From an uncultured Pseudomonadales bacterium (lineage in GTDB: Bacteria; Pseudomonadota; Gammaproteobacteria; Pseudomonadales; Azotimanducaceae): a DNA stretch of 64,000 bases. The stretch is taken from NCBI GenBank assembly GCA_938017975.1, contig CALIKQ010000003.1, positions 1-64,000 on the forward strand, in the 5' to 3' direction. Position 1 is the stretch's first letter. Each line of letters opens with the position of its first letter. The notes beneath the pieces were generated by a model that ran no database searches, had not been told where the DNA came from, and worked only from the letters and a program-made list of their open reading frames with translations. A program made the translations under genes and the position numbers. Positions 55,116-64,000 of this stretch are shown here, piece after piece.

Positions 55116-56414
55116 ATGCGCTGGATAGATTTACGAAAGCATTTTTTCTATGGACTACCCCCGCGAAAATGGGCAGCGGCCCTTAAGGCTTGTCTTTTAT
55201 TCATGTCCTTGATCCTCGGTACCCTTGGATTACATCACGGCTCGAAGGCTGGGCTCCCAGCACACACTGCTAATAGCAGCCAAGAAAGCCGCGACGTCGA
55301 TACGCTCCAAGCACTCGGCGCCGCGGCGCGCGAGCGCAATGCGTGGGCTGATGCCGAAGATTATCTACTCCGCGCTCAGTACCAGTTGCATCGAGAATTC
55401 GGTGTTACAACTGCTAAGCAACAACCGATTGTTGAAGGTCTAGCCACACTTTCTATCCAATCCGAAAACTATCAAAAAGCCAACCAGTTATTTGAGTTCA
55501 ATCACTTTGTTGCCCAAAAAACCACCCTACCCGCAAGTATGATTCAAGCGGACATTGCGCTCGCGAACTGGTATCTACAGTCTGGTCAATTCGAGCGCGC
55601 CGCAGCACTGCTTGAACCTTCTGAGGCAGACGATTTCACAGGCGCCAACTTCATTCCGGAACGCGCCCTGCTCAGACTCGATATCGCTCGATTTACACGA
55701 CATTGTTGCTCTCCAAAAGAAATCATGGCAACGGTCGAGCAAGCAGAGCATTCTGGGTTGCCAGAGGACAGCCTGCAGCAGTTCAGGCAAGCAGCCATTC
55801 AACTACTGATCGTCAGCGGTCATAACATCGAAGCCGCATCTATTCTTAAAGCCGTTGCGTCCTCCCAAAACGCGCCACCCAGAATGATTGCCGGCAAACG
55901 ACGCATAATGCACAGAGACCCCAATCGTGAGCTGAGTCAGATAGAGAGGCGGCAAATCGAGCAGCTCCTGCAATTGCGGGGCATGGGCTCGGACCCTCGC
56001 ATGAATGATGCTCTGTGGAATCGGGGTCCGCAGACCGTCACAATTAGCAGCTCCGACGAATTTCTGCCGATCGAACGTCCTGAGCAATCCGAACTTGGCG
56101 CCAATCGTCAATTCCATGCGCTCACCGGGCACCCTTTGCGCTTCCGAGAAAAAGATTTAAGACAGATATTGCCTGCAAAATATTTGAAAAAGGCAAATCT
56201 TGAAAGCCTCGAAATCGTCATGGTCTTCGCGATCACACCCGAAGGCCGGGTACGAAACATCAGGTTCGAGGGTCCTTACGACCGACAGATCAAAGAACTG
56301 ATGCGGGATACGCTGAAAGCGGTTCGCTTTCAACCCGAGCTCAGGAATGGCAAGCCCATCCTGCGTGAAGATTTTAGACTCGTTCAGAGTTTTCCACTCC
56401 AAGGGGAGGCCTAA
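55116..56414 (+). CDS. Exported protein with helical-repeat body and TonB-C-like C-terminus (copy A)
   Basis: A 432-residue protein. Residues 1-40 carry a long basic N-terminus then a hydrophobic segment (LKACLLFMSLILGTLGL), so it is exported or anchored. Residues 60-260 are helical with TPR-like spacing (ANWYLQSGQFERAAALLEPSE). A mid linker is Arg/Gln-rich (SQIERRQIEQLLQLRG). The last 75 residues (SLEIVMVFAITPEGRVRNIRF then LKAVRFQPELRNGKPI) match the TonB C-terminal fold. It has no proline-rich spacer, so it is not a classical TonB. It ends three bases before copy B, same strand. Confidence 0.75.
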   Translation: MRWIDLRKHFFYGLPPRKWAAALKACLLFMSLILGTLGLHHGSKAGLPAHTANSSQESRDVDTLQALGAAARERNAWADAEDYLLRAQYQLHREFGVTTAKQQPIVEGLATLSIQSENYQKANQLFEFNHFVAQKTTLPASMIQADIALANWYLQSGQFERAAALLEPSEADDFTGANFIPERALLRLDIARFTRHCCSPKEIMATVEQAEHSGLPEDSLQQFRQAAIQLLIVSGHNIEAASILKAVASSQNAPPRMIAGKRRIMHRDPNRELSQIERRQIEQLLQLRGMGSDPRMNDALWNRGPQTVTISSSDEFLPIERPEQSELGANRQFHALTGHPLRFREKDLRQILPAKYLKKANLESLEIVMVFAITPEGRVRNIRFEGPYDRQIKELMRDTLKAVRFQPELRNGKPILREDFRLVQSFPLQGEA

Positions 56415-56417
56415 CCT

Positions 56418-57968
56418 GTGACTTTCAGTTTTAGAACATGGCTGTTGATTACCGCGGTCATCGCTCCATATTTCGCGATGGGTCAAACCAGTGGTATTAA
56501 TCCGACCTTGATCCTAGATCATCTCTACCCATCGCCTTCATTCTCCCAGTGGCAGGCGTTCAAACCGATGCCTGGACCAAGTTCTGAGCCTTTATCTCAA
56601 CAAGCTGCAGCGGTCCTTGCCAATGACCTCATCGAGCGACTCAGTATCGATGAAGATGTTAACGCCACTGAGCAGGGTCAACTCCTGTCCAATGCAGGTG
56701 TCCTGCAGACCTACTCAGGAGATCTCATTGGAGGAAGATTAACTCTGGATGAGTCCCTCGAAATGCTGATGACAGATCGACACCAATTTGATCCAGCAAT
56801 TGCGACCCTGGTCACTGCCATCGGCATTAATGCATTTCTTCAAGAGGATTTCGAGGTGGCTGAAAACCACTTTCGATGGAGTCAGCACATACAGCACCGG
56901 GAAGACGGCATATATTCTGCGAACCAAGCCAAAAACCTGAACTGGTTGACCCGGGTCTATCTCGCAGAGCAAGATTTCACCGCAGCGGACACGGCGCAAC
57001 GCTACATTCTTCGGATCGCTCGCAATACCTATGAAGAAGGCTCGCCAGAACTGACGAAGGTCAAAGACGGAATCGCAAAGTATTTGGCACAACGGGGCAA
57101 AATGATTTCGCCCCTATCTGACGAGCTCCAGCGTGCATTGAGGCAAACCCTTTTTGCCGAGGCCATCACTCTGCTCGATGAGAACCTACGATCTATAGAG
57201 GCCAATTTTGGACCCCAAACCCTAGCATTGGTGGACACTTTAGAAACTCAAGCGGATATTTATTATTGGCGTGGAAATCACAACCGCCAACAGGAACGGG
57301 CGCTCGAGCGAGCCCTCGACATCTTGCGACTCCAACCCACACCGAGCCCTGATCGGCTGGCAGCCGCTTGGTTCAACCTTGCCGACGGCTACGTATTAAC
57401 AGGAAACCGAAAAGCGATCTCGGCCTATGCCTCAGGCTGGTCGCTAAAAACAAGCGCTGCGGTCACCACCAGCCATGAAGCGCCTGGCCTTCCTTCCGGC
57501 ACGACAGCCCCGACAGCTATTTCGACAGCAACCGCCGATCCATCCAAGAGCCCTTCTCCCTCGCTTGACATCGCAGGTGCTATCGATACGGGCCCCTTGC
57601 CGACGCAACCCGCACTGCTCTGGCCAGAGGCTTATGCCGCACTTTACTTCGCGCCCGTCAACGAGGCGAAATATCCCGCGGACGTCGATTACTACGTGGA
57701 TTTCAGTTTTACCATTTCAAACATGGGCAAACCTAAGCGTATCCGCATCACCGATCGCAATGTCCCCAGTGAAGAAGCGCGCTGGGCCCGCTCTGCCATT
57801 CACAGTAGTCGCTATCGCCCCGCCCTCGTCGACGGCGTCGCTGTCCCTTTTGAGACCACCTATCGCCAGGCTTTCACCCGCATTGCCCCCCTGTCAGAAT
57901 CTCCCCCTGCCGCTGATCCATCCGCAGCTCAACCATCTGCCCAAGAACTCCTACCTTCCCAGCCCTAA
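56418..57968 (+). CDS. Exported protein with helical-repeat body and TonB-C-like C-terminus (copy B)
   Basis: A 516-residue protein starting at GTG, with GGGGAGG eight bases before it. The signal peptide is about 1-22 (FRTWLLITAVIAPYFAMGQT). Residues 70-330 are helical with TPR-like spacing (FEVAENHFRWSQH, AAWFNLADGYVLTGN). A Ser/Thr/Pro-rich linker follows (about 345-385), then the TonB-C-like segment VDYYVDFSFTISNMGKPKRI ... SAIHSSRYRPALVDG, ending in a Pro/Ala/Ser-rich tail. It shares order and fold with copy A but little sequence identity. It converges on the lipoprotein at 57997 with 28 bases between. Confidence 0.75.
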   Translation: MTFSFRTWLLITAVIAPYFAMGQTSGINPTLILDHLYPSPSFSQWQAFKPMPGPSSEPLSQQAAAVLANDLIERLSIDEDVNATEQGQLLSNAGVLQTYSGDLIGGRLTLDESLEMLMTDRHQFDPAIATLVTAIGINAFLQEDFEVAENHFRWSQHIQHREDGIYSANQAKNLNWLTRVYLAEQDFTAADTAQRYILRIARNTYEEGSPELTKVKDGIAKYLAQRGKMISPLSDELQRALRQTLFAEAITLLDENLRSIEANFGPQTLALVDTLETQADIYYWRGNHNRQQERALERALDILRLQPTPSPDRLAAAWFNLADGYVLTGNRKAISAYASGWSLKTSAAVTTSHEAPGLPSGTTAPTAISTATADPSKSPSPSLDIAGAIDTGPLPTQPALLWPEAYAALYFAPVNEAKYPADVDYYVDFSFTISNMGKPKRIRITDRNVPSEEARWARSAIHSSRYRPALVDGVAVPFETTYRQAFTRIAPLSESPPAADPSAAQPSAQELLPSQP

Positions 57969-57996: not shown

Positions 57997-58704
57997 TTAC
58001 TCGCCCCCTACGAAACTCCTCAGCTGGTTCGCAAGTCCCTTGCAAGCCGCGTTTCCTGGTCTTGCCAAAATTGGAATCGGTACCACCAACCCGGCCAAAT
58101 AACTCGTCCCGTTCGCATCTGCGCTGATCTGTCCGGAGGCGTCTAGGGTCTCTAGATCCCAAACGGATGCCTCATATGACGCATCTTGTTCCCAAAAACT
58201 CATACCAAAGCAGCCACCACCAAAGGTGCTTACCGCACAGCTCATAGAGCCACCACTATCAATCGTCACCGTATCCCCTTCTATCCAGGCCAAATAGCGA
58301 ATTTTCGACGCTCTAATCCGGTCTCGAACACCGGGCTCACTAAACAAGCGCCCAAGGTCGCCGGCATTGCCTGGCGCTGTGCGAGGCTCGAACCAAGGAT
58401 AAAGATCATTCTTAAATTTTTTCTGTCCAACAAGCCGGATTGGGTTGCTCCCTTGGCTCAGGATATCCTCGAGACAATCTGTAAAGCTCTCCTCTGTCTC
58501 TCGATCGTTATACGTTGCCCTCCCCAAGATCACCATCGCTTCTCCTGCAGCCAACTGAGTCGTCGAGCTTCGGGATTCCTCGATCCGTGTCGTCGCGCAC
58601 CCTGATAGCAGCAGCATCAGAAGCGCAGCATAGGTCGCAACGCGGATGCTCGTGCTTGGTCCCGCGATTTTGAAGAGGCTTTTGTCTTTGGGATTCATGG
58701 GCAT
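57997..58704 (-). CDS. Lipoprotein of unknown function (GGCFG-type)
   Basis: A 235-residue lipoprotein. The lipobox LLSGC gives lipidated Cys36 after a hydrophobic stretch (YAALLMLLLSGC). The mature part has an early AMVILGRATYND strand, conserved-looking DCLEDIL and DLYPWFEP segments, KIRYLAWIEG, and SGGSMSCAV ... GGCFGMSFWE with a likely disulfide. I believe similar proteins exist in other proteobacteria but no function is known to me. A ribosome site is weak; the ATG at 58704 or 58698 is possible. Cys near 77 may pair with the Cys near 204. It is convergent to copy B. Confidence 0.75.
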   Translation of the reverse strand: MPMNPKDKSLFKIAGPSTSIRVATYAALLMLLLSGCATTRIEESRSSTTQLAAGEAMVILGRATYNDRETEESFTDCLEDILSQGSNPIRLVGQKKFKNDLYPWFEPRTAPGNAGDLGRLFSEPGVRDRIRASKIRYLAWIEGDTVTIDSGGSMSCAVSTFGGGCFGMSFWEQDASYEASVWDLETLDASGQISADANGTSYLAGLVVPIPILARPGNAACKGLANQLRSFVGGE

Positions 58705-58776
58705 TTTGGTCTCGGCTCGTTAAACGGCTTGTCAGCGGCGAATCTGGATTGATTTTTCCAACAGCGCTCGAACACT

Positions 58777-58839
58777 GACGCTTCTTTCACCCTTCATTCA
58801 CACTTCTTTCACGCTTCTACTCATCACGCTTCTACTCGA
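58777..58839. repeat. Pyrimidine-rich imperfect direct repeats
   Basis: CACGCTTCTACTC occurs twice 15 bases apart (58810 and 58825), preceded by related ACGCTTCTTTCAC and ACACTTCTTTCAC copies. Together they make an imperfect CT-rich array in the gap between the two minus-strand lipoprotein genes. No gene lies in this gap (58705-58960). Confidence 0.55.
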
Positions 58840-58944
58840 CCCAACTCAACCAAGCTGACGCTGAGCGAGGTCCTTTGGTGGCTGCCGAGTGCTCGCGTCG
58901 AACCTGAAGCCGCTCGCCAGTCATAGCGTCTCAAGCTTACCCTT

Positions 58945-58972
58945 CATTACATCACTGGCATTACATCACTGG
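58945..58972. repeat. Perfect 14-bp tandem duplication across a stop codon
   Basis: CATTACATCACTGG is repeated exactly twice. The stop codon of the lipoprotein gene on the minus strand lies inside the upstream copy on that strand, so the second copy is a duplicate of the gene's last codons placed after the stop. Recent slippage is the simplest reading. Confidence 0.8.
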
Positions 58973-59668
58973 CCTGCCATCTCTATCCAAAATGTATTGA
59001 TCGATCCACTCCGAGACGTAGGCTTGCTTCGGCCATTCAATCGCTATTCTTGCTCCCGCATCGCGAATGGCTTCTACCGATGCTTGGTTGAGCGCCTTAT
59101 TGGCCTGAAAAGCGCGACTCTCACTCTTTCCGTAACCCGTGACGATCCAATCCCCAAGGGGCTGGGCGTCAGCACCAAATAACGTGAGCTGGTACTTGAC
59201 CGACACTGAAAAGAAATTCAAACCCGAGAGCGCAGGCGTCAAAAAAGCGTATTCAACGAGGTCAACTTGCACAAAGCCGTTAGGGCAGTCAGGGCTAGGA
59301 ACAGGCGCCTCGGACCCTCGACAAGCCTCAAGCTCTGCATCGACAGCCGTTAGGAACATTGCGTCGAACAAGGTACTAAAAAATCTTTGATTCAGCTGAC
59401 CCACGTCGATCCGCCAACTGCCGCCTCCACGAGGCAGCTCCTCGTTGTGTACATAACTGTTAAATGAAGGCTGTGTGATCACCCCAATGCTGAGGGGTAG
59501 CGCTTCTATCAGAGGAGTGGGAACACGACCTTCAACGGTAATCGAATGGCTGCACCCGCTCACCAGTAACAGACAAGCCAAACCCGCCGTCAGGGTCACA
59601 AAAATAGCCGAGCCGAAGGGCTTCACGACACCCTCTGCGTACTTTCCCTGACGCTGATCTTTTCGCAT
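58961..59668 (-). CDS. Lipoprotein of unknown function
   Basis: A 236-residue lipoprotein with lipobox LLVSGC after a hydrophobic segment (FVTLTAGLACLLLVSGC). The mature part has an N-terminal beta-rich EGRVPTPLIEALPLSIGVIT, a FVQVDLVEYAFLTP strand and a FSVSVKYQLTLFGADAQPLG strand pair, and an all-helical end ending VSEWIDQYIL. The pattern, strand-loop with an internal YHNEEL-like segment, resembles outer-membrane lipoproteins used as assembly factors, but no family is named with confidence. The ATG at 59668 gives the shortest n-region before the lipobox. Starts at 59725 or 59809 would give signal sequences that are too long. Confidence 0.7.
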   Translation of the reverse strand: MRKDQRQGKYAEGVVKPFGSAIFVTLTAGLACLLLVSGCSHSITVEGRVPTPLIEALPLSIGVITQPSFNSYVHNEELPRGGGSWRIDVGQLNQRFFSTLFDAMFLTAVDAELEACRGSEAPVPSPDCPNGFVQVDLVEYAFLTPALSGLNFFSVSVKYQLTLFGADAQPLGDWIVTGYGKSESRAFQANKALNQASVEAIRDAGARIAIEWPKQAYVSEWIDQYILDRDGRPVM

Positions 59669-59996
59669 GCTGCTGTTCTCGCATCTGGACTGACCGTTCC
59701 CAGCCCAAAGATAAAGGGGATTCATGACGGCCTTTCGAATTGGGCGCTCTGCCCTCCCATGTTTAACGGCTTCAACTCCCGAAAAATTCGTGTGCTCAAA
59801 AAAAAGCAATTAGAAAAAACAATTTAGTCACTGCGATTGGACAAATCAACCGATCTATCAGACCGCTGCCTCGAAACACCGAACGACTACCTTCTTCCAA
59901 ACCCCGGGGGTCATCCAAAAGTACGTCAACCATCGTAATTCAGCTTAAATTCAGCTTTAATTTACCAAGATCAAGCAAATCCTTTGGACTCATCCC
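59669..59996. other. Divergent intergenic region before the lipoprotein-pseudokinase operon
   Basis: About 330 bases. The half nearest 59800 is A-rich (AAAAAAAAGCAATTAGAAAAAACAA region, split here) and probably holds divergent promoters. A direct repeat of 11 bases sits at 59937-59958. No gene or RNA was recognised. Confidence 0.4.
59937..59958. promoter_or_regulatory. 11-bp direct repeat before the operon
   Basis: AATTCAGCTTA is followed at once by AATTCAGCTTT, about one helical turn apart, some 40 bases before the start of the Ser/Pro-repeat lipoprotein gene. Two half-sites in the same orientation and phase suit binding of a response regulator. That is inference; no partner regulator is in the window. 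Confidence 0.45.
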
Positions 59997-61718
59997 ATGC
60001 GAGCCATACGCCTCTACGCTTTCATCGCTTTTTTTCTTGCGGGTTGCAGCAGCAACCAGTCACGGATGCCGCCCATGCCGCCAAGTCCGCCCAGCTCATC
60101 GTCTCCGAGCAGTTCTCCGAGCATGCCGAGTCCTTCATCGCCGAGCAGCGCACCGAGTATGCCGAGCCCGTCATCACCGAGCAGCGCTCCAAGTATGCCA
60201 AGCCCGTCATCGCCGAGTAGCGCTCCAAGTATGCCGAGCCCGTCATCACCGAGCAGTGCCCCAAGTATGCCGACTCCCAGCATGCCCAACCCAAGGACCC
60301 CGAACAGCGAATCAAGTTCAGAATCTCAATCGCAGACCGATCAAGAACGAAACCGAGACCAAAAGGAGCAAGGGAGCGACTCAGACAACGATACCAATGC
60401 CCAGCCCGGTCAATCATCATCAGAGCAAGCTGCTGATGATACTGGCCCAACCAATCCTGGCAGCCAGCTCGAAGAGATTGGCAAGGCCTTGGAGCGCGCT
60501 GGCGCCTCAGAGCGTCAAGAACCCTCCGAGTCCGACTCTCAGGGCAATGATGCTTGGGATCCGTTAATGCCAGAACCAGAACCCTCCCAATCGGCCACCA
60601 GCGATACCTTCGAAACCTCAGAGATAGCAATACCCACTGCAGCGGCATCAGCAGCGTCTAACGGGGACATGGGCTCTGATGAGCCAATCTCCGATGCTCA
60701 GGGGGGCGATACGACCGGCTCTCAACCCGAAGAAGGTCAGGACGCCGATCAGCCGGCTTCCTCCGAGAACAACACGACATCATCGGCATCAACCTCGGCT
60801 GACGGCGAGCCAAGCATTGCCTCCGAAGGACTCGATTCAAGCACAGCAAGCGCCGGTACCGGCAACGAAGCACAAAACGCCCCATCAGATAATCCTGAGA
60901 ACCCAGGCATGCAAAGCGACCGAGGAGCTCCACGTTCAGGCTTGGATGACCCTTCAAACGGTATGATGGAAGATCTTGCTGTGGCGCTTGAGCAAGCCGG
61001 TATTGCGCTGCAATCTGCCGGAGCGGCGCTCAACGATGATGACAGTGGTGACTCCGAAGGAGATGTTGAAGCAGCCCTCACTGACGCCAATATTGCGGTG
61101 CTGGTCGCTGAACAAGCCCTCGAGGCTGTGATTGCGAATACAGACAGTCCCAGTCCTGAAATGACCGCAGACATCAGCGACGCTGCACGACTGATCATCC
61201 TTGCCGGCAGCGTTCTATCGGATGCCCAAGGTATACCCAACGGACCCGAGGGTGAGGATCTCGCCATTTTAGGAGCACCCTCTGGTGCCGACCGATTGGG
61301 ACAACTCGATGCAGAACTCGAGGCATCCATCACCATTTTCGAATCGGAGGTCCAGGAATCAAGAGATGCAGTGGCATCAATCCTCAGCGGCCCTGCTGCT
61401 GAGGCCGTTGGCGGCCCAGGACCGTCCTTAGATGATATCGGGACAGGGATGCTCGAGCCTGAGGATGACACGGGCGAAGGTGCGGGTGAAGATCTCGGTG
61501 ATCCCGGCGCGCTCGAACCCATTCGCCAAGGTCGAATGATCGATGGAGAAAACACCGACAGCTCCCAGGGCAGCGCCCAAGTTCCCGATGATATACCCAG
61601 CCCCCAAGGCGATGACATTGTCGCCAAGCAGCTTCGGGAAGCAGCCTCAGCTGAGAAAGACCCTGACCTCAGAGCCAAACTCTGGGAAGAATACAAACGC
61701 TACAAAGAAGGACTTTAA
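59997..61718 (+). CDS. Ser/Pro-repeat lipoprotein, acidic, unknown function
   Basis: A 573-residue lipoprotein with lipobox FLAGC (lipidated Cys17). Residues 24-100 are low-complexity Met/Pro/Ser, including four copies of the 12-residue unit PSPSSPSSAPSM. Residues 100-330 are acidic and Ser/Gln/Asp-rich, probably disordered. Two alanine-rich helical patches follow (VALEQAGIALQSAGAAL and VAEQALEAVIAN, about 325-385), and the C-terminus is charged (KDPDLRAKLWEEYKRYK). It may form an extended stalk from the outer or inner membrane, with the helical part as the working end. Tightly followed, three bases later, by the next lipoprotein gene. Confidence 0.8.
   Translation: MRAIRLYAFIAFFLAGCSSNQSRMPPMPPSPPSSSSPSSSPSMPSPSSPSSAPSMPSPSSPSSAPSMPSPSSPSSAPSMPSPSSPSSAPSMPTPSMPNPRTPNSESSSESQSQTDQERNRDQKEQGSDSDNDTNAQPGQSSSEQAADDTGPTNPGSQLEEIGKALERAGASERQEPSESDSQGNDAWDPLMPEPEPSQSATSDTFETSEIAIPTAAASAASNGDMGSDEPISDAQGGDTTGSQPEEGQDADQPASSENNTTSSASTSADGEPSIASEGLDSSTASAGTGNEAQNAPSDNPENPGMQSDRGAPRSGLDDPSNGMMEDLAVALEQAGIALQSAGAALNDDDSGDSEGDVEAALTDANIAVLVAEQALEAVIANTDSPSPEMTADISDAARLIILAGSVLSDAQGIPNGPEGEDLAILGAPSGADRLGQLDAELEASITIFESEVQESRDAVASILSGPAAEAVGGPGPSLDDIGTGMLEPEDDTGEGAGEDLGDPGALEPIRQGRMIDGENTDSSQGSAQVPDDIPSPQGDDIVAKQLREAASAEKDPDLRAKLWEEYKRYKEGL
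60126..60269 (+). repeat. Four tandem 36-bp repeats inside the Ser/Pro lipoprotein gene
   Basis: Each 36-base unit encodes PSPSSPSSAPSM, with silent differences among copies (for example CCGAGTCC, CCGAGCCC and CCAAGCCC). Being a multiple of three, the array can expand or contract without breaking the gene. Flanking partial copies (SPSSSPSM before, PTPSM after) show the array's edges. Confidence 0.85.
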
Positions 61719-61721
61719 GTT

Positions 61722-62972
61722 TTGACTGATTCCATCCAGCGTATTCCGCTCGCTCAGAGAGCAGCGCAAATTTTGTTCCGCGCCGGGCTTCTGAGCTTGG
61801 GCGCGATGACGTTCCTGTTCACTTCCTGCACGTCGACTGAAATTGTCACTGCTAATTCTGCTCCGCCGGTGCAGTTGGTTTCCTCGATCAACGATTCTGA
61901 CCGCCTTGATATTCTTGTTCTGCCATTCGACCCTAACCTAGACACGCTTGCGGAGGCGAATCAAGGCGATATACCGATTTCTGCAGACGTACGGCGCGCA
62001 GAATCTAGATACATTGCCTTTCATCTCAAGGATACCCTTGAGCAAACTGGTAACTGGGGTATTGTCAGGGTCGTCCCCTCGGCTGCGGACCATCATGCGG
62101 TCACCGTCACCGGTACAATCATCGAATCTGATGGAGAACAGCTCCATGCCGAGGTGACTGCCAAAGACGCAACTGGACGGCTGTGGTTTAGTCGGACTTA
62201 TCAAGACATTGCGAGCAAATATGGCTATCAGTCGCTCCAAGAGGACCCATTTCAAGATTTTTACAACGACATCGCCAACGATCTCGTGCGCGCCTATCAG
62301 TCGCTCTCAACCAGAGACATTCGTCAAATTCAACAGGTCGCGAATCTACAATTCGCTGCCAATCTTGCGCCCTTAGCCTTCGAGGGTTATCTGACAGCCA
62401 CCAAACGCGGTGAGATTCTGATCAATCAATTGCCAGCATCCAATGATGCCAGCATGCTTCGAGTCAACCGACTTCGAGCACAGGATGATCTTCTCACTGA
62501 CACCCTTGATGATTTTTACCTCAAGTTCTACCGTGATATTAAACCGTCCTACGATGAATGGCGGTACGCCACCTATGATGAGGCAATTCGGCTCAGACAA
62601 ATGAACAAGCAAGCACGTAACCGGTTATTAACTGGCGCAGCCCTCATTGCCGGAGGCATTTATGCCGGTTCGCAAAGTGAGACCTGGGCCGCAGATGCAG
62701 CCTCTGCTGGCGCCGTAATGGGGGGCATTACGGCGATTAAAAGTGGACTAGACCGGCGAAAACAGACCGAAATTCACGAGCAAGCACTGCAAGAATTGAC
62801 CCAATCACTGAGCCTCGAGATCGCACCGAACGTGCTTGATATCGAAGGAGAAACGCGCGAACTGACGGGTTCTGCCGAGCGCCAATACGCTCAATGGCGC
62901 GATATCCTCGCAGAAATTTATCGCGAAGAACGCGGCGGCGACCAGAATCCCAAAGGCGCCCTAACCCAGTGA
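61722..62972 (+). CDS. Lipoprotein with glycine-rich hydrophobic segment, unknown function
   Basis: A 416-residue protein starting at TTG, with AAGGA nine bases upstream; no ATG fits. The signal ends in LFTSC, a slightly atypical lipobox at Cys36. Residues 60-200 (DILVLPFDPNL, then AVTVTGTIIESDGE and AEVTAKDATGRLWF) form a fold that recalls CsgG/LpoB/TolB-N-type lipoproteins, given as an impression. A glycine/alanine-rich hydrophobic part at about 308-340 (LTGAALIAGGIYAG ... AGAVMGGITAI) may cross or insert into a membrane. The C-terminus is helical and charged. Its stop overlaps the start of the pseudokinase gene. Confidence 0.8.
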   Translation: MTDSIQRIPLAQRAAQILFRAGLLSLGAMTFLFTSCTSTEIVTANSAPPVQLVSSINDSDRLDILVLPFDPNLDTLAEANQGDIPISADVRRAESRYIAFHLKDTLEQTGNWGIVRVVPSAADHHAVTVTGTIIESDGEQLHAEVTAKDATGRLWFSRTYQDIASKYGYQSLQEDPFQDFYNDIANDLVRAYQSLSTRDIRQIQQVANLQFAANLAPLAFEGYLTATKRGEILINQLPASNDASMLRVNRLRAQDDLLTDTLDDFYLKFYRDIKPSYDEWRYATYDEAIRLRQMNKQARNRLLTGAALIAGGIYAGSQSETWAADAASAGAVMGGITAIKSGLDRRKQTEIHEQALQELTQSLSLEIAPNVLDIEGETRELTGSAERQYAQWRDILAEIYREERGGDQNPKGALTQ

Positions 62973-64000
62973 ACCCAAAATTCTCTGTGGGCGACCAGCT
63001 CGGCGAAAGATTTAGCCTTCGCGAAGCCATTTCCACGCCTGATCATCAATGTGAGCGTTGGGCAGCGCTCGACAAGAAATCCGGGGCCTTGGTCATGCTG
63101 ACCGTCATCGGCCAAAATGATGCGCTCGAGCGGGAGTTTCGAGGGATCAGCGCACGGCTCAAAATGCTCAGCCATCCGCACATCAATCCGCACCTGGATT
63201 TTTGGGCTGATGCGGAAAACCTCATTATCGTCGACGCGCTCCCTCAAGAATCGATGCCGGCACCAACCATTGGGGAGGACAGGTCTCACAAGCAGCTCGA
63301 ACCCAAGGTCCTGCTCGAGGTCCTTGAATTCAGTGAGGCCTTAGGATTTACGATCGCAGACTTCAGCACCGATTGGGTTTGGATCGACAAAAACGGTGAA
63401 CCGATCTTGCTGCTATTAGGATGGCCGAACACCGCTACTTTGCGGGATGCGGCCTCGACGAACCCGACCTTAGAAGGACCTACTGGATTTGGATCTTGGC
63501 TTTATCAACACCAAACCGGAGATATTCCGGCAGATGCCAATTCAATCGAAGGGCATCCAACCTTAACGCCAGAATCAAAGCGGCTTATCGGCCTGGCACA
63601 GCTGAACAAAGATGCGTCTTTTTCTTCCTTGGCACGAGCCTTCAACCTCGAGGAAACACTCACCGAAGCTGGCTCTGGCGTCTCAGCGCTTGACGCTAAA
63701 CCCTTTGACAAAATTACGCCCAAATTCACCCATGAGGTGCCTAACCAAGGTCATTCCATCGAAACCGAATCCACCCCCGATGGCAGCTTGATCAGATTGT
63801 TGGGTATCGGACTCCTTGTCATCGTCGCGGGTTTTGTCTTTCTCGTACTACCAGGGCTTGTCTCACAACCTCAAGTTGAACCGCTCAGGGAACTGAGCGC
63901 TGGCCCTAAAACACCCGAAGGCAATGTGGAGAGCCCGAGCCCACTCACTGTCGCCAAGGATAAGCTTGCTCGGGAAGAAGCCTTAAGGCTTGCAGAGGTC
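62969..64000 (+). CDS. Membrane-anchored pseudokinase-like protein (partial, runs off the window)
   Basis: A frame of 344 codons, open to the right edge, starts at GTG 62969 overlapping the previous stop (GTGA). Residues 1-150 align by eye with the small and large lobes of a Ser/Thr protein kinase: GDQLGERFSLREA at the start, WAALDKKSGALVMLTVI, EREFRGISARLKMLSHPHI (helix C and the HPNI-like turn), and the catalytic-loop region ALGFTIADFSTDWVWIDKNGEP. But VAIK's Lys is Thr45, the HRD His and Arg are Ile-Ala (129-130), the catalytic Asn is Trp136, and DFG is LLG. So it should not phosphorylate. A membrane segment lies at 274-298, then a periplasmic-facing part starts. Confidence 0.75.
   Translation, partial: MNPKFSVGDQLGERFSLREAISTPDHQCERWAALDKKSGALVMLTVIGQNDALEREFRGISARLKMLSHPHINPHLDFWADAENLIIVDALPQESMPAPTIGEDRSHKQLEPKVLLEVLEFSEALGFTIADFSTDWVWIDKNGEPILLLLGWPNTATLRDAASTNPTLEGPTGFGSWLYQHQTGDIPADANSIEGHPTLTPESKRLIGLAQLNKDASFSSLARAFNLEETLTEAGSGVSALDAKPFDKITPKFTHEVPNQGHSIETESTPDGSLIRLLGIGLLVIVAGFVFLVLPGLVSQPQVEPLRELSAGPKTPEGNVESPSPLTVAKDKLAREEALRLAEV

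Follow-up and report, generated by a model that had tools for sequence, protein, structure and literature searches.

A gene at the end of the 64,000 nucleotides analysed here (the window, by which we mean the whole stretch) raises the question of what a bacterium does with a membrane-spanning protein that is built like a Ser/Thr kinase and has exchanged its catalytic residues. The first-pass annotation described a transmembrane pseudokinase encoded together with a lipoprotein, and proposed either a scaffold or a sensor of an internal signal that controls the lipoproteins encoded before it. The description itself is borne out by sequence profiles, predicted fold, motif changes and conserved synteny with the lipoprotein LipB, and the scaffold role is probably correct; the sensor is taken up below. 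The features concerned are listed in Table 1.

Table 1. Positions, in the window, of the pseudokinase gene, its parts and the genes preceding it.
Feature	Position	Strand	Remarks
tprA, syntenic upstream gene	55116..56414	+	Seen in long-form clusters
tprB, syntenic upstream gene	56418..57968	+	Synteny
Lipoprotein travelling with the cluster	57997..58704	-	Synteny
Second lipoprotein travelling with the cluster	58961..59809	-	Long TTG-start frame; start probably further in
Low-complexity Pro/Ser-rich lipoprotein, syntenic upstream gene	59997..61718	+	Synteny
LipB, conserved lipoprotein of 416 aa	61722..62972	+	GTGA overlap with the pseudokinase gene
Transmembrane pseudokinase gene	62969..64000, on to contig position 65200	+	GTG start; 743 aa
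Pseudokinase domain, approximately residues 1-235	62969..63673	+	T45, I129-A130-D131, W136 and L149-L150-G151 at catalytic positions
Juxtamembrane linker, approximately residues 236-275	63674..63793	+	Low model confidence; evolves faster in most pairs
Single transmembrane helix, approximately residues 277-298	63797..63862	+	Followed by the TPR/PEGA-like part, mostly beyond the window

The window ends in the middle of the gene. Its extension, which had been recommended, was carried out by reading further along the contig and yielded the full 743-aa frame ending at contig position 65200; the GTG start and the coupling to the lipoprotein gene, both noted earlier, agree with the frame coordinates, in which the GTG at 62969 lies over the stop codon of the gene at 61722-62972. 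An alternative in-frame ATG is present at 62894, but the starts of relatives align with position 62969 instead. The best 19-residue hydropathy windows begin at residues 275-280, and the region behind the membrane is TPR-like with a conserved terminal segment. TPR repeats are the sole Pfam match above cut-off in the protein; the C-terminal segment, for which Pfam gives no PEGA match, can be read as PEGA-like. The linker contains the motif FDKITPK, similar to an F-x-x-I-x-P stretch in the short N-terminal stubs of kinase-less forms, and this stretch is perhaps a conserved docking peptide.

By computation, the N-terminal domain descends from, and folds as, a Ser/Thr kinase. The Pfam search proposed earlier succeeded for relatives and failed for the window protein itself, in which no kinase is found up to E = 10 when it is searched alone: the kinase model matches 8 of the 15 N-terminal domains of the family (long forms) at E <= 1, the best at 6.2e-17. 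When whole genomes are scanned, the kinase score at this gene is 60 bits in genome G016 and 38 in G028 and G015, goes down to 17-20 bits in G013, G001 and G011, and disappears in the window genome. A profile of the 15 family domains finds PknA (1.2e-21) and StkP (4.1e-21). The comparison of a predicted fold with kinase structures, also suggested at the outset, gave a kinase-like result: the AlphaFold2 model of the window stretch, made with 22 aligned relatives (pLDDT 74.9, pTM 0.70), has the strand and helix order of kinases, and all 50 PDB matches listed by Foldseek are kinases, with PknA at the top (E 3.3e-10, TM 0.64), although the alignment takes in relatives with intact kinases and is thereby biased towards a kinase fold. 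Sequence profile and fold similarity thus both place the domain in the Hanks-type kinase superfamily. Profile-based annotation overlooks this kinase-derived domain in decayed lineages.

Alignment to relatives that keep the motifs confirmed the earlier reading that the ATP-binding Lys, the His and Arg of HRD, the loop Asn and DFG are all changed. The VAIK Lys is T45, the catalytic-loop Asn is W136, DFG has become L149-L150-G151, and in I129-A130-D131 the His and Arg of HRD are replaced while the Asp at the catalytic position stays. Tested for the three residues of catalytic competence (Lys, HRD Asp, DFG Asp), the window protein, with T45, D131 and L149, fails. Homologues with intact VAIK, HRD and DFG motifs, which had been named as evidence against a pseudokinase, do exist among distant relatives; they speak for the ancestry of the domain but not for activity of the window copy, which stays changed. 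In a profile alignment of the 46 long forms of the window's clade, the Lys is kept in 15, the HRD Asp in 3 and the DFG Asp in 7, with 8, 7 and 7 rows unalignable at these positions (the window protein among the last two groups). None of the 46 has all three residues and five have two; the HRD Asp is most often replaced by Asn (13 rows, as H-G-N), and motif decay across the family is graded. Taken jointly with a structural role for the whole protein, we consider the window domain to be probably a non-catalytic pseudokinase.

The surroundings of the gene are conserved. LipB is the next recognised upstream gene in 32 of the 34 loci of a first set, the two misses being due to contig ends. A second set shows it at all 17 of its loci, in two of which a kinase gene intervenes (L059 belongs to both sets). 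Homologues thus almost always follow a lipoprotein like the one at 61722, a point that had been put forward for checking. LipB matches no Pfam family and its sequence has no PDB match up to E = 1; its model has none at E <= 0.001, and LptE, TolB and PqiC, at best 2.1e-3, were too weak to identify it with a known lipoprotein. Further upstream, the Pro/Ser-rich lipoprotein carries a Ser/Pro/Met low-complexity repeat tract close to its N-terminus. The two inverted lipoprotein genes (57997-59809) stand between tprB and this gene in the readable long-form clusters, and follow vwa2 in most kinase-less clusters.

As far downstream as the contigs extend come a PEGA/FGE protein (four PEGA stretches and an FGE-type domain by Pfam in the window genome), in many cases a small protein, then a MotA/TolQ/ExbB-like protein, ASK (our name for a protein that mostly has 420-470 aa and is missing from L059), and two VWA proteins. 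Both vwa1 and vwa2 start with a membrane helix, and the TolR-like Asp is present in every row (28 for vwa1, 26 for vwa2). The available part of a recent description reports paired membrane-tethered vWA proteins that are encoded beside tolQ, without tolR, and carry a TolR-like Asp (PMC12204202). The same module is found here, in that a TolQ-like gene adjoins two VWA genes with a membrane Asp, and Pfam finds no ExbD family in the eight proteins scanned. The cluster organisation points to a membrane motor complex, a putative role for which we rely on sequence and on the prediction published there, by analogy with which the TolQ/VWA module may be driven by ions to rotate (PMC12204202). Kinase, PEGA and formylglycine do not occur in the available text of that description (PMC12204202), and the kinase/FHA part is added here. 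One genome that also has the main cluster contains a second, divergent copy (L059, G021:C60, 7729-15339) with LipB, a short membrane protein, FGE, a MotA-like protein and two VWA proteins, in which the FHA-like protein was unmatched. At L120 (12860-15094) and L124 (12714-14909) the FHA-like protein has a frame of 731-744 aa, with approximately 270 extra front residues that overlap the MotA-like gene; at L124 the MotA profile also matches this frame, which is either a fusion or over-long.

The full protein was matched in 35 of the 58 genomes searched, the window's own included. Its C-terminal part was found at E <= 1e-3 in 185 of 200 genomes of the family (a few weakly) and in 145 of 369 genomes of the class (only about 30 strongly), and at E <= 1e-30 in 122 of 147 genomes of another order; the viral contigs searched contain no relative of the protein. 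The 32 loci with named records are mostly from Gammaproteobacteria or Pseudomonadales assemblies and include some Acidobacteriota, Chromatocurvus, Pseudomaricurvus and Rariloculus. Four states occur at one locus: a fused intact kinase, a separate intact kinase, a fused pseudokinase, and none. Where it is separate, the intact kinase gene stands between the genes for LipB and the membrane protein (e.g., L120, L279-L283). The 47 pseudokinase rows of the window's family form, with two rows cut by contig ends, one clade (SH-aLRT 100), and in a tree of kinase domains one branch (SH-aLRT 91) parts 32 cluster kinases (7 fused, 2 split, 23 pseudokinases) from 21 other kinases; both trees are unrooted and come from quick searches, and gain and loss of the kinase are not separable on them. 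The pattern fits decay in place from an active kinase. Kinase-less clusters keep the remaining gene set and, therefore, the domain is not needed everywhere.

The fate of the kinase is mirrored in ASK, the C-terminal end of which is an FHA-like domain whose family profile finds PDB FHA chains weakly (best E 0.0023). With Pfam, FHA is recognised at 9.4e-10 to 7.2e-14 in all four clusters tested that have an intact kinase, and at 1.4e-7 in the pseudokinase cluster that has decayed least; the ASK copy of the window genome gives no FHA match up to E = 0.1. From 130 loci we dropped L059 (nothing usable matched), 32 rows in which the FHA region is unreadable, three of unknown state and nine near-duplicates, leaving 85 distinct clusters in which both kinase state and FHA part are readable. 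A kinase was called intact when Lys, HRD Asp and DFG Asp were present, regardless of the glycine loop, which admits HGD, HLD, HSD, HCD and YRD loops and some altered DFG endings; L124 and L280, where the C-terminal frame overlaps the kinase gene and the script read no kinase, were counted as intact by hand. Of the 35 intact clusters, 32 have the strict phospho-reader signature (S/T-R-x-H and S-x-x-G-T/S-x-x-N); of the 25 with a pseudokinase 4 have it, and of the 25 that lack a kinase none. Its second half alone is present in 35, 5 and 0 clusters, respectively. An intact kinase is, by this count, strongly associated with an intact FHA signature. Relative to the level in intact clusters, the median profile score of the FHA part is 0.16 in pseudokinase and 0.15 in kinase-less clusters. 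As a control for general divergence, the corresponding ratios are 0.91 and 0.83 for the N-terminal 260 aa of ASK and 0.78-0.97 for LipB (only 6 intact rows, the 9-kb loci cutting genes), the membrane/TPR part, PEGA/FGE, MotA-like and vwa1 proteins. The control profiles were built from intact clusters, with intact rows scored held out, and we left the ratios for vwa2 (1.68 and 1.60) out of account, since many vwa2 genes in the intact set are truncated by the 9-kb limit of the loci.

Four pseudokinase clusters keep the reader, with FHA scores of 115-132 bits: L123 and L267 depart from intact only by Arg for Lys in the three-residue test, the Lys position is unaligned in L272, and all three residues are changed in L262. 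These clusters suggest that the kinase may have been lost first and the reader later. Within the window's clade, kinase and FHA scores are correlated (rho 0.63, n = 19, kinship ignored). The tree requires at least nine changes of the intact state and eight (strict) or six (loose) changes of the reader. Well-supported branches provide four independent contrasts, in which FHA goes in the same direction in 1.4 on average (0-2) and in the opposite direction in none, save for one of 200 random pairings (strict); with only four such contrasts, co-change is too sparse for significance. Read by eye, the tree shows six lineages that have neither an intact kinase nor the strict reader: the clade of the window, L250, L274/L278, a group of 19 kinase-less rows, L292/L297 and, from Acidobacteriota, L122/L126/L127. 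In two of these kinase-less Acidobacteriota, L122 and L126, the FHA domain is degenerate yet recognisable.

Kinase-like enzymes with a rebuilt active site do exist, as in SelO and SidJ, and the Asp at the HRD-Asp position of the window protein and the Lys kept by 15 of the 46 clade members might be taken to mean that its domain is still an enzyme of this kind. However, the polar columns that are at least 75% conserved in the clade coincide, plus one Thr, with ordinary kinase sites, which we take to be the LxHP His, the His before the HRD loop, the HRD His and the Asp and Arg of the C-lobe. A new set of conserved polar residues is not seen in the clade. At four of the conserved columns the window protein itself departs from the clade (E123, I129, G170 and S220), and it lacks the loop Asn and the DFG Asp; a rebuilt enzyme is, therefore, very unlikely. 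Another reading is that the domain is a passive leftover, a dead kinase fold that persists only for the sake of the needed membrane/TPR part, which would agree with the graded motif decay and with the complete absence of the domain from 25 of the 85 clusters. By computation, however, the domain is under purifying selection. Its dN/dS (a simple NG86 estimate, with dS high in several pairs) is 0.105-0.352 in 15 of 16 pairs of relatives, the remaining one (L192/L108) being saturated, and thus far below 1 and near the 0.074-0.265 of the membrane/TPR/PEGA region across the same pairs, while the linker values, defined for 14 pairs, extend from 0.115 to 1.256 (L206/L209 is saturated in the linker). 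Even in the most decayed genus the domain gives 0.153-0.327 (8 pairs), and among the family matches listed none has an internal stop. We consider a passive leftover rather improbable.

Two further readings concern signalling. The pseudokinase could serve an active kinase elsewhere in the cell as allosteric partner; one clear intact kinase is indeed present in the genome, on contig C31, beside a phosphatase-like gene. This kinase lies outside the cluster, however, and the cluster has no phospho-reader signature and thus no phospho-circuit that is visible there, which makes such a partnership unlikely. The sensor of the first-pass annotation, which would respond to an internal signal and control the preceding lipoproteins, could appeal to the tight coupling of the gene to that of LipB, but this coupling spans the whole cluster including the TolQ/VWA module, and among the eight proteins scanned Pfam gives neither a DNA-binding nor a protease domain above its cut-off. 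This part of the annotation is left unsupported, and with the cluster pointing to a membrane motor we find it hardly credible.

Overall, it seems fairly likely that the protein, with its non-catalytic pseudokinase, one helix and periplasmic TPR/PEGA-like part, is a structural subunit of a TolQ-like/two-VWA envelope complex. In ancestral clusters the kinase would phosphorylate a threonine of the complex, and the resulting phosphothreonine would be bound by the FHA domain. The window's lineage would have abandoned phosphorylation, leaving the pseudokinase as a joint that needs no phosphorylation, anchors or aligns the putative complex and links the inside of the cell to its periplasmic part; the contact of the pseudokinase may still be with the degenerate FHA-like domain, which is the boldest step of this proposal. 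In other lineages the same joint would be a regulated phospho-switch. Tentatively, and with considerable reservation, we suggest that the cluster preserves a path from a kinase/FHA phospho-switch to a phosphorylation-independent joint, with an endpoint convergent with YukC/YukB. It would lead from an active fused or separate kinase with a canonical FHA domain to a pseudokinase with a degenerate one, as in the window, and elsewhere to a degenerate FHA domain without any kinase.

The closest working precedent for such a joint is YukC of B. subtilis, the pseudokinase domain of which, according to the available part of the report, co-purifies with the FHA part of YukB, whose phospho-binding residues are not conserved, in a contact that the authors regard as phosphorylation-independent (PMC9600267). 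As far as the available texts go, the EssB/YukC proteins of type VIIb secretion share with the window protein a cytoplasmic pseudokinase with degraded motifs, a single helix, an outer part and a place as hub of a membrane machine (PMC9600267, PMC13037476). A pseudokinase, one helix and an outer helical part are likewise found in the window protein, the last by TPR profile only. The differences are the diderm host, the TPR/PEGA-like periplasmic part, the TolQ/VWA cluster in place of the EssC ATPase, and relatives that apparently still bear an active (intact) kinase. The EssB/YukC family profile does not match the window protein (Pfam up to E = 10, NCBIfam up to E = 1), and the scanned neighbour genes include no type VII EssC ATPase neighbourhood. 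TraF of a type IV system is another transmembrane pseudokinase (PMC13037476, available part). Transmembrane pseudokinase scaffolds are also a known kind according to the available part of a 2025 review on bacterial pseudokinase families (PMC12599244), among them the GLW pseudokinases, which are proteobacterial, have a membrane helix after the kinase domain, and carry GLW instead of HRD and Leu or Trp instead of Lys; TPR, PEGA and Gammaproteobacteria are absent from that text. Membership in this group was rejected: His is at the HRD His position in 39 of 46 clade members (7 unaligned), and none of the 46 has Leu or Trp at the Lys position (8 unaligned).

The type VI threonine phosphorylation pathway (PpkA, Fha, TagR, TagQ) comprises a transmembrane kinase, an FHA protein, a VWA domain, an FGE-like protein and a lipoprotein, a kit of parts that the window cluster resembles. 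In the window cluster, however, VWA and kinase are on separate proteins and a TolQ-like subunit is present, and VipB (PF05943) was found in 0 of 7 genomes of the family, for which we reject this pathway; the search did match E. coli among 14 controls. Profiles of anti-phage defence families gave only weak matches (Zorya-like ZorA at 8.2e-4 to the MotA-like protein, and coiled-coil families to the VWA proteins).

The open-access literature searched yielded no kinase or pseudokinase joined with a TolQ/VWA cluster, nor the kinase/FHA layer of such clusters and its joint decay. Pairs of a pseudokinase and a non-phospho-binding FHA domain are known from a secretion machine, and we found no account of their origin; the active, decaying and absent states at one syntenic locus open the order of loss to testing. 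The recently proposed TolQ/VWA family, in turn, gains a probable phospho-control layer in many bacteria.

Some kinase-related genes were noted outside the locus. The clear intact Ser/Thr kinase on contig C31 of the window genome (L001, 1390-3071) lies beside a gene on the opposite strand that, on reading of its sequence, encodes a PP2C-like phosphatase. Contig C38 of the same genome (L002, 1501-1869) gives a weak kinase-profile match (20 bits) in a long frame, and other genomes of the genus have frames of comparable length that are matched just as weakly. Extra kinase genes are also located a few kb upstream of the cluster at L122 (3131-5788) and L190 (4169-5491); in the kinase tree these group with other kinases, away from the cluster kinases.
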